From: Enterococcus hulanensis
GTDB lineage: Bacteria; Bacillota; Bacilli; Lactobacillales; Enterococcaceae
Direction: 5' to 3'
Length of the DNA stretch: 64,000 bases
Assembly (NCBI RefSeq): GCF_005405485.1
Contig: NZ_BJED01000007.1
Span: forward strand, 1-64,000
The translations under genes and the position numbers were made by a program. Shown here piece by piece: positions 38,827-50,611 of the stretch. Position 1 is the first letter of the stretch. Each line of letters starts with the position of its first letter. Below the pieces are notes generated by a model. The model did not search any database. It saw nothing but the letters and a program-made list of their open reading frames with translations, and was not told the origin of the DNA.

Positions 38827-39675
38827 CTAAGATTTTCTAACCGCTGGAAGATATGTTGGGTAATCGCCGATCAAAGTGACAGCGAAATTCTGCTCCTTTA
38901 ACTGAAGCAGCACTTTATTGAGCTTCTCCTTAGCTGGAGTCTCTAGGTCAATAATAAAGAAGTACTCCCCTAATTTTGTTTTTTGTGTGCGTGATTCGAT
39001 CTTAGTCAAGTTGATGTCTTCTGCCGCGAAGATCGCCAAGCCTTGATAAAGTGCCCCAGGATGATCTGAAGCTAAATCGAATAAAACCGTCGCCTTATTC
39101 TTTCCATGAGGCAGGTTCCCTGCGACTGGTTGCTCCCCCAGCACCCAAAAGCGTGTTTCATTCTCACTGATCGATTGGATATTTTCTTGGACGATCGTTA
39201 AACCGAATTGTTTGGCCGCGTCTCTTGAACCGATCGCGGCATAACGTTTTTCAGGATTATCGGCGACCTTTTGCGCGCCTTGAGCCGTTGAGCCGATTTG
39301 TTCGATATCAACTGTTGGAAAATGGTTCATCAAAAAGACTTGCGATTGTGCTAAAGCCTGTTGATGGCTGCAAATCAATTCCGTATCCTGCCAAGAATCG
39401 GCATGAGCAGGATGCACCATTAACTGCTGCTGAATCGGCAATACGATCTCCGCTTGAATCGTCGGCAAAGTTTGAAAAATCAAATCCAATGTCGGCAATA
39501 CAGAGCCTTCGATCGTATTTTCGATCGGAACGACACAATAATCCAATGCGCCCTTTCGCTGTTCCTCTAAGAGCGCAGTTAATGAGTCATAAGGTAGTAA
39601 TACATTTTCATTAAAAAAGTTTGCAGCCGCACTGTAGGTAAATGACCCTCTCGGTCCCAAATAGCCAACTTTCAT
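38827..39675 (-). CDS. pheA: Prephenate dehydratase
   Basis: The 282-residue enzyme converts prephenate to phenylpyruvate in Phe synthesis. The PDT domain (1-180) shows GPRGSFTY, VPIENTIEGSV and the TRF motif in SENETRFWVLG. The ACT domain (about 195-275) carries an ESRTQK variant of the Phe-binding ESRP motif, so feedback by Phe is likely but may be altered. Its ATG overlaps the aroK stop (TAATG). It is the last gene of the aro operon. Confidence 0.95.
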   Translation of the reverse strand: MKVGYLGPRGSFTYSAAANFFNENVLLPYDSLTALLEEQRKGALDYCVVPIENTIEGSVLPTLDLIFQTLPTIQAEIVLPIQQQLMVHPAHADSWQDTELICSHQQALAQSQVFLMNHFPTVDIEQIGSTAQGAQKVADNPEKRYAAIGSRDAAKQFGLTIVQENIQSISENETRFWVLGEQPVAGNLPHGKNKATVLFDLASDHPGALYQGLAIFAAEDINLTKIESRTQKTKLGEYFFIIDLETPAKEKLNKVLLQLKEQNFAVTLIGDYPTYLPAVRKS

Positions 39676-41767: not shown

Positions 41768-42841
41768 TCAACTCCTTCTGCGACAACGAAAATCCGCTTC
41801 TTCAATTAGCAATTGCCCTTTTTCCAAGTCTGCTTGATTTTTAAATGAAAGTTCTAGAACACCGAAAATATCTTCCCGAGTTTCTTGAATTTTTAAGTTA
41901 ATAACCGAAATACCAGCCTCGCTAATGAGCGTCATCACTTTTGCGATGGCTCCTGCGATATCCGGAATATCAATGTAAAGATCGTAGAATGCTGGAATTA
42001 CGCCACGATCTTTTGTCGGCAAATGATCGCGAGAATGTTTGGCCTGACTAAAAAAGTCATAGATTGCCGGCTGGTCTTCTTGAATGAGGCTTTCTTGAAT
42101 CTTCGTCATTTCGTCCTGCCAGCCTGTGATCAAATCCAGCAAGATTGATCGATTGGTTAATAAAATGTCGGTCCACATTTGCGGATCTGAGGAAGCGATT
42201 CTTGTAATGTCGCGAAAGCCTCCTGCTGCCAACTGTGTTGCCCGAGGGTGATCTTCTGTCAGCTGATCACTCATTTTCACCAAACCTGATGCCACGATGT
42301 GAGGCAAATGACTCAAAACCCCTACGATCTCATCATGAGATTCAGGTTCGATCACAACAAATTTTGCTCGAGTCGGCTCTAATAGTTCCATTAACGGGTC
42401 GACGTTTGTTCCTTCAGGCGGTGTCAAAATGTAGTAAGCCTCTTCGAAAAGATTTGGATTCCCTGCTTTGACTCCTGATTTATGGGAGCCCGCCATTGGA
42501 TGTCCTCCGATAAATGTAAAAGGCAGTGTCTTCGCCAGCTTCATGACCTCATTTTTTGTGCTGCCGGTGTCGGTGACGATCACTGATTCTTTCAATGGCA
42601 AGCGTGCCAGTTCATGCAAGTAATGCAGCGTTGATAAGACGGGTACGGCCAAGATAATGATATCCATCTCAGGAGCTCTTTCAATAGAAGCAATTTGATC
42701 GACTAATCCAACTTCACTAGCGATTTCGCGGGTTTCTTCCGAATGATCCCAGCCGAACAGCTCGATCGTTGGATTTTTGATTGCCCGGCAAAGTGAAGCG
42801 CCGATTAGACCAAGTCCTAAGACGAACACTTTCTTTTTCAT
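41768..42841 (-). CDS. tyrA: Prephenate dehydrogenase
   Basis: The 357-residue enzyme oxidises prephenate to 4-hydroxyphenylpyruvate in Tyr synthesis. The start is ATG 42841 ([17 protein letters not shown] motif GLGLIG) behind [19 protein letters not shown] contains the conserved catalytic His. A C-terminal ACT domain (about 285-350; [16 protein letters not shown]) suggests feedback control. The C-terminal codons contain the aroA ribosome binding site. Confidence 0.95.
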
Positions 42842-42857
42842 AGACGTACCCTCTCTC

Positions 42858-44018
42858 TTAAAAGTTTTTGATTGCTTCGCGGTATTCTGCAACCGCCTGT
42901 TTTAACTCATCGATTGTATCGGATGAGAATTTTTCTAAAATTTCTTGTGCTAAGACTGTCGCAACGACATGTTCTGCAACGACAGAAGCGGCTGGAACCG
43001 CCGTGCTGTCTGAACGTTCAACACTTGCCTTGTAAGGTTCCTTCGTATCAATATCGACACTCATCAATGGTTTGTACAATGTCGGGATCGGCTTCATGAC
43101 ACCTCGGACGATGATCTGTTCGCCATTGGTCATGCCGCCTTCAAAGCCGCCAAGGTGATTACTTGTTCGACTGTAACCTTCGTCCCAGACGATTTCGTCC
43201 ATGACTTTGGAGCCTGGTCGATGAGCCGCTTCGAATCCAATTCCGAATTCAACACCTTTAAATGCATTGATACTCATCATGATCTGTGCGATCTTGCCAT
43301 CCAGCTTGCGGTCCCATTGAACGTAGCTGCCTAATCCAGCTGGTACATTGTCCGTTCGTACTTCCACGACGCCGCCAATGGTATCGCCAGCTTTTTTCGT
43401 TTGATCGATCAACTCCTTAACCGATTCTTCGACTGTCTCATCAACCATGTTGACTTCTGAGACTGCTGTTTTGGCTTTAATCTCTTTTACGCTCAATTTT
43501 TCTGGAACTGCAGCTTCGATTCCGCCTAAAATTGCGACGTGACTGGCGATATCAATGTCTACTGCTGCTAAAATTTGTTTTGCAAGAGCGCCAATCGCCA
43601 CTCGCATCGTTGTTTCGCGAGCAGACGAGCGTTCCAAAACATTCCGCAAATCACTGTGATGGTATTTCATCCCGCCGACTAAATCAGCGTGTCCTGGCCG
43701 TGGTTTTGATACCCGACGTAATTTTTCATCTTTTTCAGCTACTGCTTCGACAGACATGACCTTTTGCCAATTTTTCCAATCACGGTTTTCGACGATCATG
43801 GTAATTGGAGAACCTAATGTCTTGCCGTGACGCACGCCAGAGGTAATCCGAACTTGATCTTTTTCGATCTTCATGCGTCCGCCGCGTCCGTAGCCGCCTT
43901 GTCTTCTTGCTAGTTCTTGATTGATTGCTTCAACGGAGAGTGTTAGTCCTGCTGGAACACCTTCGATGATCGTTGTTAATTCTGGTCCATGAGATTCTCC
44001 AGCTGTTAAGTAACGCAT
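42858..44018 (-). CDS. aroC: Chorismate synthase
   Basis: The 386-residue FMNH2-dependent enzyme makes chorismate from [33 protein letters not shown], the [10 protein letters not shown] block, [13 protein letters not shown] and the C-terminal [11 protein letters not shown] block match the family. Length is normal (about 388). It sits 4 bp after aroB and 16 bp before tyrA in the operon. Confidence 0.97.
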
Positions 44019-44021
44019 AAG

Positions 44022-45080
44022 CTATTCTCCTTCTAGTAAAAACTCTTTGATTTCAGTGAGTTTGATTTTTTTAATATAGGCCTTGCCGATTTCTGCCAAT
44101 AAAATAATGTTTAAACTGCTGCCCCGAGCTTTCTTATCATGGGTGATGGCCGTATAGAATTTTTCGGCTTCCCACGGCTGATAAGTAATCGGCAGTTGAT
44201 ATTTTTGATTCATCGCTTTAATTTTATTAGTGATACCGGCTGGTGAAAGATTCTTTTTCTCAGCGGTTTGCGAAATCTTCACCATTCCAATGGCAACTGC
44301 CTCGCCGTGACTGATCTTTCCATAGCCAGCTGTATTTTCAATTGCGTGGCCGATCGTGTGGCCGAAATTCAATAATAGACGTGAGCCGTTATCGAATTCA
44401 TCTTCTTCGACAACTGTCTTCTTTACTTCCAGAGCTTTGAGAATGATCGCTTCACTATGAGCTAAAAGATCTTGGATTCCTGTTAGTTTCTCAAGGTCGT
44501 TCCATAGTGAAGCATCACTGATCGCGCCGCACTTGATGATTTCTGCGATTCCTTCGCGTACTCGCAGCTCCGGCAAAGTATTCAATGTTTCTGGATCGAT
44601 CAATACGCCATCCGGTTGAGCAAAGGTTCCAATCATATTCTTGGCTTTGCTTGAGTTCACCGCTGTTTTCCCGCCAATACTAGAATCTACTTGTGCTAGT
44701 AAGGAGGTGGGAATTTGAACAAAGGCGATCCCTCTCATATAAGTCGAAGCGACGAAGCTGGCTAAGTCGCCCACAACACCTCCACCAAGAGCGATGATTG
44801 CATCACTGCGGGTAAATTGCTGATCGGCTAGAAAATCATAAAGATTGTTTGCCATTTCTAAAGATTTACTGCTTTCGCCAGCCGGCACAGTGTAGTGACA
44901 GACCTCATAATTGGCTAACTGCTGTTGGATTTTCTCGCCATAAAGCGGAAAAACATGTTCATCGCTGATGATTGCGATTTTTTTATTCTGCCAAAGTGAA
45001 GCGATCCATTCGCCAACAGTATCTAAAGCGTGGCGCTTTACGATGATTTCATAACTTTTATCTGATAAGACAATTTCCAT
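44022..45080 (-). CDS. aroB: 3-dehydroquinate synthase
   Basis: The 352-residue NAD- and metal-dependent enzyme forms dehydroquinate. LGGGVVGDLASFVASTYMRGI (NAD/substrate) and LNFGHTIGHAIE (zinc His) are intact. It starts 17 bp after aroF. No dehydroquinase gene (aroD) is in this operon, so that step must be encoded elsewhere. Confidence 0.97.
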   Translation of the reverse strand: MEIVLSDKSYEIIVKRHALDTVGEWIASLWQNKKIAIISDEHVFPLYGEKIQQQLANYEVCHYTVPAGESSKSLEMANNLYDFLADQQFTRSDAIIALGGGVVGDLASFVASTYMRGIAFVQIPTSLLAQVDSSIGGKTAVNSSKAKNMIGTFAQPDGVLIDPETLNTLPELRVREGIAEIIKCGAISDASLWNDLEKLTGIQDLLAHSEAIILKALEVKKTVVEEDEFDNGSRLLLNFGHTIGHAIENTAGYGKISHGEAVAIGMVKISQTAEKKNLSPAGITNKIKAMNQKYQLPITYQPWEAEKFYTAITHDKKARGSSLNIILLAEIGKAYIKKIKLTEIKEFLLEGE

Positions 45081-45096: not shown

Positions 45097-46137
45097 TTAA
45101 ATCAGTGAAGGTTCTTTTGTTAGTTCCTTAACTTTTTGCATCGCATCTACCATGATTTCTACTTCACTCATCATTTGTAGGTAATTTTTTTCATTCAATG
45201 ATTGTTCCCCATCAGACCAAGCATGTAATGGATCAGGATGGATTTCAACGATCATACCGTCAGCTCCGCTGGCAACACCTGCTCGAGCCATCGGTGCCAC
45301 TAGATCCCATACGCCTGTACCATGACTTGGGTCAACAATGATTGGGAAATGGCTCAATTTTTTGATCAATGGTACGGCACTTAAATCAAAGGTGTTTCGG
45401 GTAGCAGTTTCGTATGTCCGAATCCCGCGTTCAATGAAAATGATTTTTGAATTGCCTTGGACAGCGATGTATTCCGCTGCATTTAACCATTCTTGGATCG
45501 TCCCGGAAATCCCGCGTTTCAAGCCGATTGGTTTGCCTGTTTTTCCGACTGCTTCAAGTAATCGGAAGTTTTGCATATTGCGTGCACCGATTTGGATGAT
45601 ATCAGCGTATTGGCAAACGACATCGATGTGCGCCTCATCCATGACTTCTGTGATCACTTTTAAGCCATGGGCATCAGCGGCTTTGCGCATGATTTTCAAA
45701 CCTTCTTCGCCTAAACCTTGGAAAGCGTATGGAGAAGTACGAGGTTTGTATGCTCCTCCGCGTAAGATTTTGGCACCGCCGGCTTTTGCCATGCGGGCTG
45801 TTTCCATAATTTGTTCTTCGCCTTCGACTGAACAAGGACCAGCCATCGTTACGAAACTGCCGTCACCGATTTTCACGCCGTCTACATCAACTACTGTATC
45901 TTGCGGGTGAAATTCTCTTGAAGTCAATTTGTACGTATTTGAGATAGCTACTGCCCGTTCAACGACACTGTAAGCTTGGAACGGTACATTTTGAATGATT
46001 TTTGGATCTCCTAAAAGTCCCAAAACTAAACGATCTTTCCCGTGATTGATTTGTACTCCTAATCCTTCTTCTGCGATACGTGATAAAATTGGTTTTAAAT
46101 CTTGTTCTTGAATTCCTTTTTTTATAATTAAGATCAT
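45097..46137 (-). CDS. aroF: DAHP synthase (type I beta, ferredoxin-like N-domain)
   Basis: The 346-residue enzyme condenses PEP and erythrose-4-phosphate. Residues 1-80 form a ferredoxin-like regulatory domain of the kind seen in Thermotoga DAHP synthase, where Tyr/Phe bind. The catalytic barrel (about 90-345) shows MAGPCSVEG, LRGGAYKPRTSPY, KRGI and PIIVDPSHGTG. It has no fused chorismate mutase. It is the second gene of the operon, 21 bp after aroE. Confidence 0.95.
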   Translation of the reverse strand: MILIIKKGIQEQDLKPILSRIAEEGLGVQINHGKDRLVLGLLGDPKIIQNVPFQAYSVVERAVAISNTYKLTSREFHPQDTVVDVDGVKIGDGSFVTMAGPCSVEGEEQIMETARMAKAGGAKILRGGAYKPRTSPYAFQGLGEEGLKIMRKAADAHGLKVITEVMDEAHIDVVCQYADIIQIGARNMQNFRLLEAVGKTGKPIGLKRGISGTIQEWLNAAEYIAVQGNSKIIFIERGIRTYETATRNTFDLSAVPLIKKLSHFPIIVDPSHGTGVWDLVAPMARAGVASGADGMIVEIHPDPLHAWSDGEQSLNEKNYLQMMSEVEIMVDAMQKVKELTKEPSLI

Positions 46138-46158: not shown

Positions 46159-47037
46159 TTATTTTTTGATTGTTTCTTCCAATAACGGTTGGATTTGTTC
46201 GACCGGCATTTCCTTGCCTGTCCATAATTTGAAAGCGGCGGCTCCTTGATACAGCAGCATGCCTAAGCCGTTGACTGCTGTTGCTCCAGTTGCTTTCGCG
46301 GCTTTTAATAATTTGGTTTCGGCTGGATGATAGATCACATCGAAAACCGGTAAATCTTTTCTTAATAAGGATACATCTGGTAATGGCATTTGATCTGTAT
46401 CAGGTGCCATTCCAATATTTGTGGCATTGATCAATAAACTGCTGGCAGCCAGTGAATCGCTCAATTGCTTTTCATCTGCTAAATCATGTAATTGAATGTG
46501 ACAATTGGTTTCATTAGCGATCATGTCCAGCTTCGGTTCGATCTTTTGATAGAAGTCATCTTTGATGTTGAATACATCGATGGCTTCCACTCCGTCGATC
46601 GCAGCTTGTGTAATAATTGCAGTTGCGGCGCCACCAGCTCCAAGAATCGTCATTCTCTTACCGATGATTTCTATCCCGTTTTGTTTCAGGCTTTCCATAC
46701 AGCCGATTCCGTCTGTGATATGTCCGATTAATTTACCATCCTGATTCACGATGGTATTGATTGCTCCGATCAAGCGGGCTGCTTGGCTGAGTTCATCGAC
46801 ATATTTGACAGCTTCCATCTTGTGAGGCATCGATAAATTGACTCCCAACATTTCAAGATCGCGAATCGCTTGTATGCTTGCGCCAAGTCGTTCAGGCTGA
46901 ACATCAAAGCTTAAATAGACTGCATCAACCCCCGTTGCTTGGAACGCTGTCGTGTGCATCATGGGTGAAAAGCTGTGCCTTGCTGGCAATGCATATAACC
47001 CGGCTAACCGCGTTCTTCCTGAAATTTCTTCTTTCAT
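46159..47037 (-). CDS. aroE: Shikimate dehydrogenase
   Basis: The 292-residue enzyme reduces 3-dehydroshikimate. HSFSPMMHTTAF (shikimate Ser-x-Ser), NLSMPHKMEA with catalytic Lys, ITDGIG with Asp, and GAGGAATAI (NADP loop) are present. ATG 47037 follows AGGAGTGAGG. As the first structural gene it lies behind the Tyr/Phe leader-peptide attenuator and about 350 nt of further leader RNA. Confidence 0.96.
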   Translation of the reverse strand: MKEEISGRTRLAGLYALPARHSFSPMMHTTAFQATGVDAVYLSFDVQPERLGASIQAIRDLEMLGVNLSMPHKMEAVKYVDELSQAARLIGAINTIVNQDGKLIGHITDGIGCMESLKQNGIEIIGKRMTILGAGGAATAIITQAAIDGVEAIDVFNIKDDFYQKIEPKLDMIANETNCHIQLHDLADEKQLSDSLAASSLLINATNIGMAPDTDQMPLPDVSLLRKDLPVFDVIYHPAETKLLKAAKATGATAVNGLGMLLYQGAAAFKLWTGKEMPVEQIQPLLEETIKK

Positions 47038-47213: not shown

Positions 47214-47260
47214 TAAAAAAAGACTAGGCCCACTGTAGAAAATCTACAATGAGCCTAGTC
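47214..47260 (-). terminator. Second terminator in the aro leader
   Basis: An 18-bp stem (47243-47260 with 47222-47239, a few G.T or mismatched pairs) and a T7 tail on the minus strand. It lies 25 nt after the attenuator terminator and about 180 nt before aroE. Confidence 0.88.
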
Positions 47261-47276
47261 TCCCAAAAAGATACCA

Positions 47277-47390
47277 AAAGAAAAAGCCACTATAGATTTT
47301 CATCTATGTGGCATTAAGTCAAACTTAAAATCCTTAGCCATCATAGATACAAACTTGTCTCGTTTGCATCCATGAATCATGAATACAAAC
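47277..47390 (-). promoter_or_regulatory. Tyr/Phe leader-peptide attenuator of the aro operon
   Basis: On the minus strand four segments follow the leader stop codon. Segment 1 is 47377-47390, segment 2 is 47362-47375, segment 3 is 47337-47354, and segment 4 (5' arm of the terminator) is 47302-47312, with its partner at 47286-47297 and T-rich sequence after it. 1:2 and 2:3 each form 14 bp; 3:4 forms 11 bp with one bulge and would block the 4:5 terminator. A ribosome at the stop codon covers segment 1, favouring 2:3 and termination. Stalling at the Tyr/Phe codons frees 1:2, hence 3:4 and read-through. Confidence 0.8.
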
Positions 47391-47459
47391 TTATCTAAAA
47401 TAGCTAAAGTAATAATTATTCAGTTGTGTGTGCGTACTCTTATTTATATTCGTATTCAT
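47391..47459 (-). CDS. aro operon leader peptide (Tyr/Phe-rich)
   Basis: This 22-codon ORF has GGAG eight bases before ATG 47459 and ends NNYYFSYFR-stop. Five of the last seven residues are Tyr or Phe, the end products of the operon downstream. The TAA is immediately followed by segment 1 of the attenuator. The reading frame is followed by mutually exclusive hairpins and a terminator, as in classical ribosome-mediated attenuation. The peptide itself probably has no function. Confidence 0.82.
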   Translation of the reverse strand: MNTNINKSTHTQLNNYYFSYFR

Positions 47460-47493
47460 AAAAATCGCTCCAAACTGATTTAAGATTGAACTT

Positions 47494-47522
47494 AGTATAG
47501 ATTTGTTTTTCCAAGAAGTCAA
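47494..47522 (-). promoter_or_regulatory. aro operon promoter
   Basis: On the minus strand TTGACT (47517-47522), a 17-bp spacer and TATACT (47494-47499). It starts 33 bp after the trpZ stop codon, and I see only a weak hairpin (47547-47566) between them. Confidence 0.8.
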
Positions 47523-49228: not shown

Positions 49229-50239
49229 CTACTCCCCTTTAACTACTTCTGCTTTTTCTTTGATTTTTTCTGGAATCGTGATGCCTAATTCTTTGGCTTT
49301 GTCTTCATTGATGATCATATCACCATAATCGATGACGTTTACTGGTGTGTCGGCTGGTTTTGATTTGCCGCTTAAAACGTTGGCTGCCATTTTCCCAGTT
49401 TCAACGCCTAAGTCAAATTGATTTTGTCCAACGGTGGCGATGCCGCCTTCTTTTGCCATATTATCAACGGAAACGAAGACTGGTTTTTTCGCCTTATCAG
49501 ATTCATTGATCAAGGTTTGGAACGCGCTGGCGATTGTGTTGTCTTGCGGAATATATAAGTAGTCAGTTTCTTGGCAAGCCTGCTGAGTGATCTGAGCGAT
49601 GTCATTACTAGAGCTGATCGCGTATTTCTTCACCGTCAAGCCGTCTTTAGTCGCACGTTTTTCTGCACGTTCGATCTGCGACTTAGAATTTTCTTCCGAA
49701 GATGAATAGATCATGCCGACTGTTTTTGCATCTGGAAACAGTTCCTTCGCCATATCTAATTGCTGATCGACTGGTGTTAGATTGTTTACACCTGTTACGT
49801 TGCCGCCGGGATTTTTCAAGTCTTTGACTAATCCAGCTCCGATTGGATCACTGATAGCGCCCATAATGATTGGCTTGTCGCTTGTTGCGTTAGCTAATGC
49901 TTTTGCTGCCGGAGTGGCAATTCCGACTAACACATCTGATTTCTTTTCTAATAATTGCTGACTCATGCTGTTTAGTTTACTTTGGTCGCCTTGACCGTTT
50001 AAAAATTCGATCTTGATGTTTTTCCCATCTTCGTACCCTTCTTGTTTCAACCCTTCGATCACACCGTCTTTGATTTGATCTAACGATGGATGGCTGATGA
50101 ATTGCAGGATGCCGACTGTTTTGATTTCTTCTTTATTTTCTGTTGCGTTCGTTTGACGCGAACCCATTTGATAAGCAAAAACTCCGATTAATACGACTGC
50201 TAATGCGATGATTGATCCGATAATTCCTTTATTTTTCAT
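49229..50239 (-). CDS. trpX: TrpXYZ-type ABC importer, substrate-binding protein
   Basis: The 336-residue protein starts at ATG 50239 (MKNKGIIGSIIALAV) behind GGGGGAA; the longer frame to 50437 runs through the leader RNA and is not real. A membrane anchor or signal (about 5-25, without a lipobox Cys) is followed by an ABC_sub_bind domain (TVGILQFISHPSLDQIKDGV, GIATPAAKALANAT, AISDPIGAGLV). Related streptococcal systems import tryptophan, and the upstream leader peptide with two Trp codons fits this. Confidence 0.87.
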   Translation of the reverse strand: MKNKGIIGSIIALAVVLIGVFAYQMGSRQTNATENKEEIKTVGILQFISHPSLDQIKDGVIEGLKQEGYEDGKNIKIEFLNGQGDQSKLNSMSQQLLEKKSDVLVGIATPAAKALANATSDKPIIMGAISDPIGAGLVKDLKNPGGNVTGVNNLTPVDQQLDMAKELFPDAKTVGMIYSSSEENSKSQIERAEKRATKDGLTVKKYAISSSNDIAQITQQACQETDYLYIPQDNTIASAFQTLINESDKAKKPVFVSVDNMAKEGGIATVGQNQFDLGVETGKMAANVLSGKSKPADTPVNVIDYGDMIINEDKAKELGITIPEKIKEKAEVVKGE

Positions 50240-50322: not shown

Positions 50323-50365
50323 GCAAAAAAAGACAACTACCCAAAAATTCAACGGTAGTTGTCTT
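50323..50365 (-). terminator. Second terminator in the trpX leader
   Basis: A perfect 12-bp stem (50354-50365 with 50330-50341) with a T7 tail on the minus strand, 84 nt before trpX. Confidence 0.9.
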
Positions 50366-50367
50366 AG

Positions 50368-50489
50368 AAAAAACAAAAACCGCATAGATCGTCTCTATGC
50401 GGGAATAAGCGTGAAAAAATATCCAGCATAGATACAAAATTTAGAAGTTGCCTAAATGTTGTATCTATGAGTGAATTCATAAATACAAC
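50368..50489 (-). promoter_or_regulatory. Trp leader-peptide attenuator of trpXYZ
   Basis: The plan is the same as in the aro leader. On the minus strand segment 1 is 50477-50489, segment 2 is 50458-50470, segment 3 is 50424-50437, and the terminator arms are 50394-50402 and 50380-50388 with a T-rich tail. 1:2 forms 13 bp, 2:3 forms 11 bp, and 3:4 forms 9 bp with one bulge, competing with the terminator. Segment 1 abuts the leader stop codon. Low charged tRNA-Trp would stall the ribosome on the Trp codons and allow read-through. Confidence 0.8.
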
Positions 50490-50549
50490 TTATCTACGCC
50501 AGTTTTGCCAGCTATTCAATTGTTGATTAGATAAGTTTGCGTTTTTCAT
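50490..50549 (-). CDS. trpXYZ leader peptide (two Trp codons)
   Basis: This 19-codon ORF has a perfect AAGGAG eight bases before ATG 50549 and ends NSWQNWRR-stop. Two Trp codons in such a short ORF, just before a stop that abuts attenuator segment 1, match ribosome-mediated control by Trp. The stretch CAATTGAATAGC and the AGATAAGTTGTAT around the stop align with the aro leader (CAACTGAATAAT, AGATAAGTTTGTAT), so the two leaders share an origin. Confidence 0.82.
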   Translation of the reverse strand: MKNANLSNQQLNSWQNWRR

Positions 50550-50582
50550 GAATGTCACTCCTTCATTTCTTATATTGAGGTT

Positions 50583-50611
50583 AGTTTAGCGGAAAAAAAA
50601 TCGACTGTCAA
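50583..50611 (-). promoter_or_regulatory. trpXYZ promoter
   Basis: On the minus strand a perfect -35 TTGACA (50606-50611), a 17-bp spacer and TAAACT (50583-50588), 33 bp before the leader ATG. Confidence 0.8.

Follow-up and report, generated by a model that had tools for sequence, protein, structure and literature searches.

A putative Tyr/Phe leader-peptide attenuator with a long helix relay upstream of the shikimate operon of Enterococcus hulanensis

Introduction

In the trp, pheA and his attenuators of E. coli and other enteric bacteria, a leader peptide with cognate codons is combined with mutually exclusive helices and a terminator, and in E. coli a leader that is not translated terminates transcription, a behaviour known as super-attenuation. 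On one view, Bacillota rely on T-boxes, the common amino-acid-sensing leaders of the phylum, because their transcription outruns translation. Leader peptides have also been described outside Proteobacteria: the accessible text of two reports covers His leader peptides before hisS and hisZ in bacilli, with predicted attenuation (PMC2965389), and the uORFC-13-1 aroF motif of Acholeplasma, in which Phe codons before aroF are predicted to act by leader-peptide attenuation (PMC8632094). Both resemble the element studied here as predicted attenuators outside Proteobacteria, a likeness drawn from their descriptions only. The closest validated precedent that we encountered is Rli60 of Listeria, once called an sRNA or riboswitch, for which mutations demonstrated ribosome-mediated attenuation of amino-acid genes, according to the portions of the report available (PMC5864092). 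Like our element it is a Gram-positive amino-acid leader first named as an sRNA, and it differs in its branched-chain codons, its 13-residue peptide and its restriction to one operon.

Two further RNA families bear on this locus. As far as the accessible parts of the reports go, sRNA_2410 is a 195-nt E. faecium sRNA detected as two transcripts by RNA-seq and Northern blots (PMC5593968), and the trpB motif is a strong riboswitch candidate with more than 900 members, for which a ligand from amino-acid metabolism was the first guess (PMC11109978).

Here we describe a leader upstream of the shikimate operon of Enterococcus hulanensis which, at a probability that we put near 0.86, is a ribosome-mediated transcription attenuator that would report the charging of Tyr and Phe tRNAs through a relay of alternating helices. 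We infer its translation, the stalling of the ribosome, the direction of the switch and the order of folding. With the enteric attenuators the aro leader shares a peptide with cognate codons, exclusive helices, a terminator and predicted termination without translation. Unlike them, it uses the codons themselves as a pairing arm (segment 0, which pairs with segment 3; hereafter 0:3), its stop codon abuts segment 1, it has 7-8 segments with a median of 178 nt from the stop codon to the last terminator stem (128 copies), and many aro copies carry two terminators. The his relay is the enteric attenuator nearest to it in length.

Organization of the leader upstream of aroE

The element lies on the minus strand at 47522-47215 of the window, by which we mean the whole 64,000-nt stretch of contig NZ_BJED01000007.1 that was analysed, and consists of a promoter, a leader ORF, a chain of helices and two terminators, followed by aroE. 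The promoter is a sigma-70-type site (TTGACT-17-TATACT, 47494..47522) that agrees with the consensus at 10 of 12 positions; because a promoter scan returned 3 sites against a shuffle mean of 2.5, we regard it as a consensus match only. A Shine-Dalgarno (SD) sequence (TTTGGAG, 47468..47474) precedes a 22-codon ORF (47391..47459) that encodes MNTNINKSTHTQLNNYYFSYFR and has the C-terminus NNYYFSYFR before its stop. The Tyr/Phe codons form segment 0 (47392..47409), which can pair over 17 bp with segment 3, and segment 1 (47377..47390) begins immediately after the stop codon. Segment 2 (47362..47376) is a partner of 1 or 3, the little-varied segment 3 (47332..47354) of 0, 2 or 4, and segment 4 (47302..47312) of 3 or 5. 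Segment 5 with its U-tract (47276..47297) makes terminator 1 with segment 4 and pairs also with segment 6 (47243..47260), which makes terminator 2 with segment 7 and its U-tract (47215..47239). All of these features are on the minus strand.

A preliminary description of this DNA had placed the promoter, the SD, the 22-codon ORF ending NNYYFSYFR and a segment 1 abutting the stop, and all are present where it put them. Its four mutually exclusive segments, said to pair over 14, 14 and 11 bp (1:2, 2:3 and 3:4), are likewise real, at 14, 14 and 11-12 bp, and are more stable than shuffled sequence (z -4.1 for the segments only and z -9.7 for the whole leader; in neither case did any of 200 shuffles reach the same stability). 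What that description lacked was segment 0 with its 0:3 helix, the 5:6 helix and, beyond the T-tailed terminator that it recorded correctly (4:5), a second and stronger one at 47260-47215. Terminator 2 is the sole terminator listed by a simple scan, and 177 bases separate it from aroE (47037). In that interval (window 47215-47037) an imperfect inverted repeat, GTGAACTAGCTTTTGAGC ... GCTGAGCGAGTTCAC, can be seen by eye.

The RNA at 47266-47407 belongs to Rfam family RF02863 (sRNA_2410; 68 bits against a cut-off of 61), whose model starts inside segment 0 and leaves most of the leader ORF outside. Identity as a T-box was considered and rejected, as the window contains no T-box covariance match; at gathering level there were two Rfam matches in the 64 kb, RF02863 and RF04312.

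The first gene downstream is aroE, encoding shikimate dehydrogenase (46159..47037; TIGR00507, 214 bits, cut-off 200). It is followed on the minus strand by genes for an aroF-type DAHP synthase (45097..46137), aroB (44022..45080), aroC (42858..44018), tyrA (prephenate dehydrogenase, 41768..42850) and pheA (prephenate dehydratase, 38827..39675), with aroA-like and aroK-like ORFs between tyrA and pheA. From this gene order, with every gene on the minus strand, we infer that one leader would control the whole shikimate operon.

Distribution and downstream genes

RF02863 was found in 20 of 20 genomes of the genus (2-6 copies each) and in 101 of the 105 from the host's family, where a genome has at most 6. 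At E 0.001 a class sample gave 23 of 250 genomes, of which only 6 were above the cut-off; each time 0 of 14 controls matched. Class-level matches beyond the order fall in three families (f18, f46 and f48), in which leaders are visible by eye. An order-wide pattern search allowing at most 1 mismatch matched 90 of 295 genomes, and a backward control pattern matched 2. Pattern scanning also adds Tetragenococcus, Vagococcus, Isobaculum, Atopococcus, Trichococcus, Romboutsia and Clostridium, and 3 of 7 Clostridia loci scored with RF02863 reach the Rfam cut-off. The range of the element thus takes in Lactobacillales, a few other Bacilli and scattered Clostridia; it is not dense across the phylum, as R1, a covariance model of the Tyr/Phe element, matched 4 of 398 genomes of a phylum sample under strict filters. 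The best RF02863 match (L051, 1501-1695) is 195 nt long, equal to the published length, and has its start in segment 0; an exonuclease halted at the base of 0:3 may have produced the 5' end reported for the sRNA.

The preliminary description made its reading depend on a leader that recurs with Tyr/Phe codons in relatives, and this holds: such an ORF precedes 93 of 105 matches to the segment-3 pattern, the less biased of our figures. Of the other 12, eight are outside Bacillota, where a Tyr/Phe leader was not found and the matches are taken as chance; inspection by eye showed no segments 1-2 in L165 (Enterococcus villorum), the edge of the locus truncates L167 and L183, and L099 has an N in the codon run. 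From 183 records we extracted 133 unique copies, leaving out 36 further motif matches (up to three mismatches) without a qualifying leader. All 133 have an ORF with ATG and SD of at least 14 codons ending before segment 1, and the other two frames have one in 0 of 133, in a set for which an SD-equipped, Tyr/Phe-rich ORF was required, so that leader presence is a selection criterion.

A gene follows the element in 132 of the 133 unique copies, and every one falls in a protein cluster of aromatic biosynthesis or amino-acid transport. These clusters were built by BLAST and some of their members were named by NCBIfam or Pfam; the other members we take, from their sequence, to be the genes given here. 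They comprise 78 ABC substrate-binding proteins, 30 aroE, 6 aroB-like genes, 5 aroC, 4 DAHP synthases, 3 NSS symporters, 3 BrnQ-type transporters, 2 ABC permeases and 1 aroK, and copies found later stand before prephenate dehydratase and transketolase. The BrnQ-type transporters have no obvious fit to Tyr/Phe sensing. The genes that follow the Tyr/Phe leaders at L178, L181 and L120 (Romboutsia and Clostridium senegalense) encode transporters of a single cluster, that of L178 matching Pfam PF05525 (branched-chain amino acid transport), which suggests either aromatic substrates or broader control.

Covariation of the helices

The preliminary description had proposed covariation across relatives as a check on its segments, and most helices do covary, by two approaches. 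Alignment A1 holds 70 sequences. Both-sided changes occur there at 10 of 13 pairs in 1:2, 9 of 14 in 2:3, 10 of 17 in 0:3, 4 of 12 in 3:4 and 10 of 11 in 4:5, and 93%, 91%, 96%, 89% and 71% of cells, respectively, are paired, each value being matched by 0 of 500 shuffles, which ignore relatedness. Slid registers leave 25-57% paired. The both-sided pair count of 3:4 was equalled by 11 of 500 shuffles, and sliding 0:3 by -1 gave 8 both-sided pairs and 14 cells against 10 and 15, with only 33% paired.

For a swap test we used 44 representatives below 75% identity from 128 copies; L048 and L186 (segments not found) and L037, L059 and L064 (poor boundaries) had been dropped before this and the occlusion folding described below. 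The test gave z -8.8 for 1:2, -3.0 for 2:3, -4.6 for 0:3 and -10.4 for 5:6, together with -8.4 for 4:5, -19 for 6:7 and +0.7 for 3:4, the last three being helices that it favours because segments 4, 5, 6 and 7 were placed by best pairing. The null result for 3:4, the antiterminator helix, follows from how little segment 3 varies. Pairing of 5:6 played no part in defining segments 5 and 6, and permutation within rough gene classes leaves this helix at z -7.4. The 44 representatives give no support for 1:4, 3:6 or 1:6; 4:7 also passes (z -5.7), probably because segment 4 resembles segment 6. Among the 15 aro-class representatives alone, 0:3 has z -0.1 and 2:3 z +0.3, under an abc/aro grouping that was made with a rough expression and misfiles several rows.

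A dedicated search located the last hairpin with its U-tract (6:7) in 131 of the 133 copies; in three of these its boundaries were poor. With an ABC class drawn roughly, 33 of the 50 copies that fall outside it have at least 5 U in the 8 positions after segment 5, as against 7 of the 81 inside, which makes tandem terminators mainly a trait of aro copies. Hairpin loops are variable, and almost every invariant column belongs to a pairing arm. The codons of the conserved QLN (ACAACTGAAT) can pair with a stretch just upstream of the SD in 37 of 44 representatives, with some covariation (z -4.8; window 47490-47410), a pairing that may gate ribosome loading. By eye, segments 1, 2 and 3 have changed together in three copies from a different family of the order (L205-L207).

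A proposed relay switch read by the ribosome

A Tyr/Phe leader-peptide attenuator before aroE, as originally proposed, is the best-supported reading of these data: the leader is conserved, most segments covary and the codons follow the gene. The family as a whole has a short ORF with a ribosome binding site, cognate codons, exclusive helices and a terminator before the operon. With Tyr and Phe plentiful, the ribosome would reach the stop codon and cover segment 1, whereupon 2:3 and then the terminators 4:5 and 6:7 would form and the operon would be off. With Tyr or Phe short, it would stall on the YYF.YF codons, covering segment 0 and leaving segment 1 free; 1:2 would then form, 3:4 and 5:6 would pair, and with both terminators blocked the operon would be on. 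In a leader that is not translated, 0:3 would close over 1:2 and make segment 3 unavailable, so that the terminators form; because segment 0 pairs with segment 3, such a leader is predicted to terminate rather than be read through. As the relay continues with 5:6 against 6:7, one decision would control two terminators in the window copy. Which amino acid is sensed would depend on the codons that directly precede segment 1 and specify Tyr and Phe, Phe, Tyr or Trp.

We folded 128 copies, to the end of segment 4 or of segment 6, with the RNA blocked where a ribosome would sit. The antiterminator 3:4 was dominant in 40 copies with no ribosome, in 94 with one at the first aromatic codon, in 34 with one at the last and in 4 with one at the stop; early stalling thus promotes the antiterminator and completion of the ORF works against it, while stalling at the last aromatic codon makes 3:4 dominance rarer than it is without a ribosome. 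Preference for 5:6 over 4:5 showed a weak contrast (38 copies with none, 71 at the first codon, 47 at the last and 39 at the stop). The earlier proposal that a stalled ribosome leaves 1:2 free needs amending in that this ribosome would also have to cover segment 0. In the window copy the equilibrium fold shows no switch, as 2:3 prevails over 3:4, and 5:6 over 4:5, whatever the ribosome state, and the whole leader folds as 0:3 over 1:2 with both terminators. A switch in this copy would accordingly need a co-transcriptional order in which 1:2 forms first.

Leader codons and specificity

Tyr and Phe make up 52% of the last nine leader residues and 1% of those elsewhere in the 133 leaders, an enrichment that alone proves little because these leaders were selected for Tyr/Phe. 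Within 122 standard leaders, the AGC codon and the last TTT codon are invariant and the final Arg is present in 118. Conservation of FSYFR is weak proof of codon reading, as segment 0 is both codons and pairing arm and its constancy is largely explained by 0:3. Better evidence is Tyr or Phe at codon -6 (121 of 122) and codon -7 (98 of 122), which lie mostly outside the 0:3 helix. Within the helix, there are 8 Tyr-to-Phe swaps at codon -3, of which 6 cost a 0:3 pair, 1 leaves it intact and 1 lies opposite a gap; 4 of 7 Phe-to-Tyr swaps at codon -5 break a pair and 3 are compensated by a matching change.

In their last nine residues, 120 of the 133 leaders have both Tyr and Phe, 10 Phe only and 3 Tyr only. 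Phe-only leaders stand before pheA and some transporters; two sister genomes carry FFFSDFR-stop before pheA. Genome G500 has a leader ending RFYFSYF-stop before DAHP synthase (identity named on the sister copy L222) and FFFSDFR-stop before prephenate dehydratase (L235). In one Enterococcus genome, three ABC paralogues between them follow mixed, Phe-only and Tyr-only leaders, and two NSS paralogues of C. sartagoforme are preceded one by a Phe-only and the other by a Tyr-only leader. That the leader codons match the amino acid of the downstream gene, where this is known, is supported by these comparisons. In a tree of the transporters, for which 61 of 81 rows were kept and the Tyr-only L041 and L045 left out, five Phe-only leaders of the genus fall in one clade (100/98), and all Phe-only leaders together need three changes. 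Genome G500 also has a divergent copy (L234), whose leader MFRIISTNIWYSYRR ends WYSYRR-stop before an NSS-like symporter (by eye) and is possibly a Trp/Tyr sensor.

A Trp sister element in the same window

A second element occupies 50611-50325 on the minus strand, before the gene for TrpX, a tryptophan ABC transporter substrate-binding protein (49229..50239, minus strand; NF041285, 467 bits, cut-off 390). By eye it has a promoter-like site (TTGACA-17-TAAACT, 50583..50611), and an SD (50558-50564) precedes a leader ORF (50490..50549) encoding MKNANLSNQQLNSWQNWRR and ending QLNSWQNWRR-stop. Segments 1 (50489-50477), 2 (50470-50458), 3 (50439-50423), 4 (50402-50394) and 5 with a U-tract (50388-50368) follow on the same strand, and then a second terminator-like hairpin (50325..50365). 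The order of segments is the same as in the aro element, and Trp codons replace those for Tyr and Phe.

This copy (50368-50471) is a member of Rfam RF04312, the trpB motif (63.2 bits against a cut-off of 59). The aro copy at 47275-47376 scores 41.8 bits against the same cut-off (E 3.5e-4) and is therefore related to the family and not a member; conversely, R1 detects the Trp copy at 50374-50516 (E 2.4e-6) as a fourth copy in the genome. RF04312 matched 137 of 246 genomes of the order, 48 of them above the cut-off and with some matches being Tyr/Phe copies, that of the window included, and 1 of 14 controls (Lactococcus lactis, below the cut-off).

Among 30 RF04312 loci taken from the best matches, the window included, an SD-equipped ORF with Trp codons lies just before the motif in all 30, with at least 2 Trp in 27. 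A downstream gene was detected in 24: 20 are TrpX-like by eye, 3 are trpB-like (that of L267 having a Pfam PALP domain) and 1 is an unrelated ORF (L262); in the stretches of the other 6 loci none was detected. An alignment of the 30 loci shows covariation of 1:2, 2:3 and 4:5 and none of 3:4. Its 0:3 signal is weak, the both-sided pairs being equalled by 177 of 500 shuffles and the covariation score by 0 of 500.

Discussion

Could the conserved RNA be something other than an attenuator? RF02863 is classed by Rfam as 'Gene; sRNA', and the accessible text of the original report has sRNA_2410 in both RNA-seq and Northern blots as two transcripts (PMC5593968), so an independent, trans-acting sRNA that happens to lie upstream of aro and transporter genes, with a fortuitous short ORF, deserves consideration. 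We think it very unlikely: all 132 copies with a detected downstream gene precede aromatic or transport clusters, a leader ORF is found before 93 of 105 pattern matches, the helices are mutually exclusive and end in terminators, several divergent copies occur per genome, and an attenuated leader would likewise leave a short RNA. A metabolite riboswitch for aromatic amino acids seems equally improbable. The RNA is widespread and structured, lies upstream of amino-acid genes and overlaps a terminator, as the trpB-motif authors point out in the text available, where they also leave a classic attenuator open (PMC11109978). Against a riboswitch stand the SD-equipped Trp-codon ORF in 30 of 30 RF04312 loci and the Tyr/Phe ORF at those same 93 pattern matches, the shift of codon identity with the downstream gene while the RNA stays constant, and the variability of the loops, with nearly all invariant columns in pairing arms.

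Two other readings keep the ribosome at the centre. TnaC is a nascent peptide that senses a free amino acid within the ribosome, and the C-terminal peptide here (QLN....YFSYFR-stop or WQNWRR-stop) might do the same for Tyr, Phe or Trp, with arrest at the stop leading to termination. The peptide is indeed conserved to its last residue (Arg in 118 of 122), and QLN or LN recurs in many Trp and Tyr/Phe leaders, Clostridia included, LN being among the last 14 residues of 119 of 133. Yet the 0:3 helix largely accounts for FSYFR, there is covariation between the QLN codons and their pairing partner upstream of the SD (z -4.8, 37 of 44), and specificity changes are simple codon swaps between Tyr, Phe and Trp, so we consider peptide arrest unlikely; it overlaps with the attenuator reading, both being ribosome-mediated termination, and our confidences in the two are not exclusive. 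Codon-specific stalling might instead control RNase cleavage or translation initiation. The sRNA_2410 model starts inside segment 0, as would be compatible with trimming to the foot of 0:3, but the hairpin and U-tract that a dedicated search located at the end of 131 of 133 copies speak for termination, and to this possibility we attach next to no weight.

Ribosome-mediated attenuation is our preferred reading, and we lean towards the wider view that one relay chassis has been re-used as a ribosome-read sensor by recoding a few codons in segment 0, a change that often sacrifices a base pair, with the trpB motif as its Trp class and sRNA_2410 as its Tyr/Phe class. The length of the relay, to which many aro copies add tandem terminators, may gain time for a ribosome trailing RNA polymerase. 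If so, it would let ribosome-mediated attenuation work where transcription runs ahead of translation, and if such attenuation is this common here, the view that Bacillota rely on T-boxes needs qualifying. Two RNA families without a function (RF02863 and RF04312) would gain a likely one, and a published riboswitch candidate, the trpB motif, becomes testable as a leader-peptide attenuator. Leader codons would also predict the substrate class of many transporters, such as the ABC and NSS paralogues with Phe-only or Tyr-only leaders, and the natural codon swaps on one scaffold make codon reading separable from RNA folding.

As far as the literature searched goes, the pairing arm 0:3 is new, and so are the longer relay with its terminators in tandem, the exchange of codon specificity on a single chassis and the union of two Rfam families. 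No prior account of these leaders was found in that literature, which included a minority of subscription papers. A survey of aromatic regulation in low-GC Gram-positives by Panina et al. (2003, FEMS Microbiol Lett 222:211) reportedly names an unexplained conserved element, which may overlap with ours. The accessible portions of PMC5593968, PMC2965389, PMC8632094, PMC2494555, PMC7724050, PMC5864092, PMC10117718 and PMC11109978 contain no account of these leaders.

Several individual loci extend the range of arrangements. L259, L260 and L261 are partial relatives before NSS-like genes in Clostridia; a leader ORF was not found in these three, which perhaps use another mode of expression. At L232 (genome G473, 2197-179, minus strand), a leader ending QLNRYYYFGWFS-stop stands before transketolase, the source of erythrose-4-phosphate for the shikimate pathway. 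L036 has two copies of the element 2.7 kb apart in one aro cluster, before DAHP synthase and an aroK-like gene.
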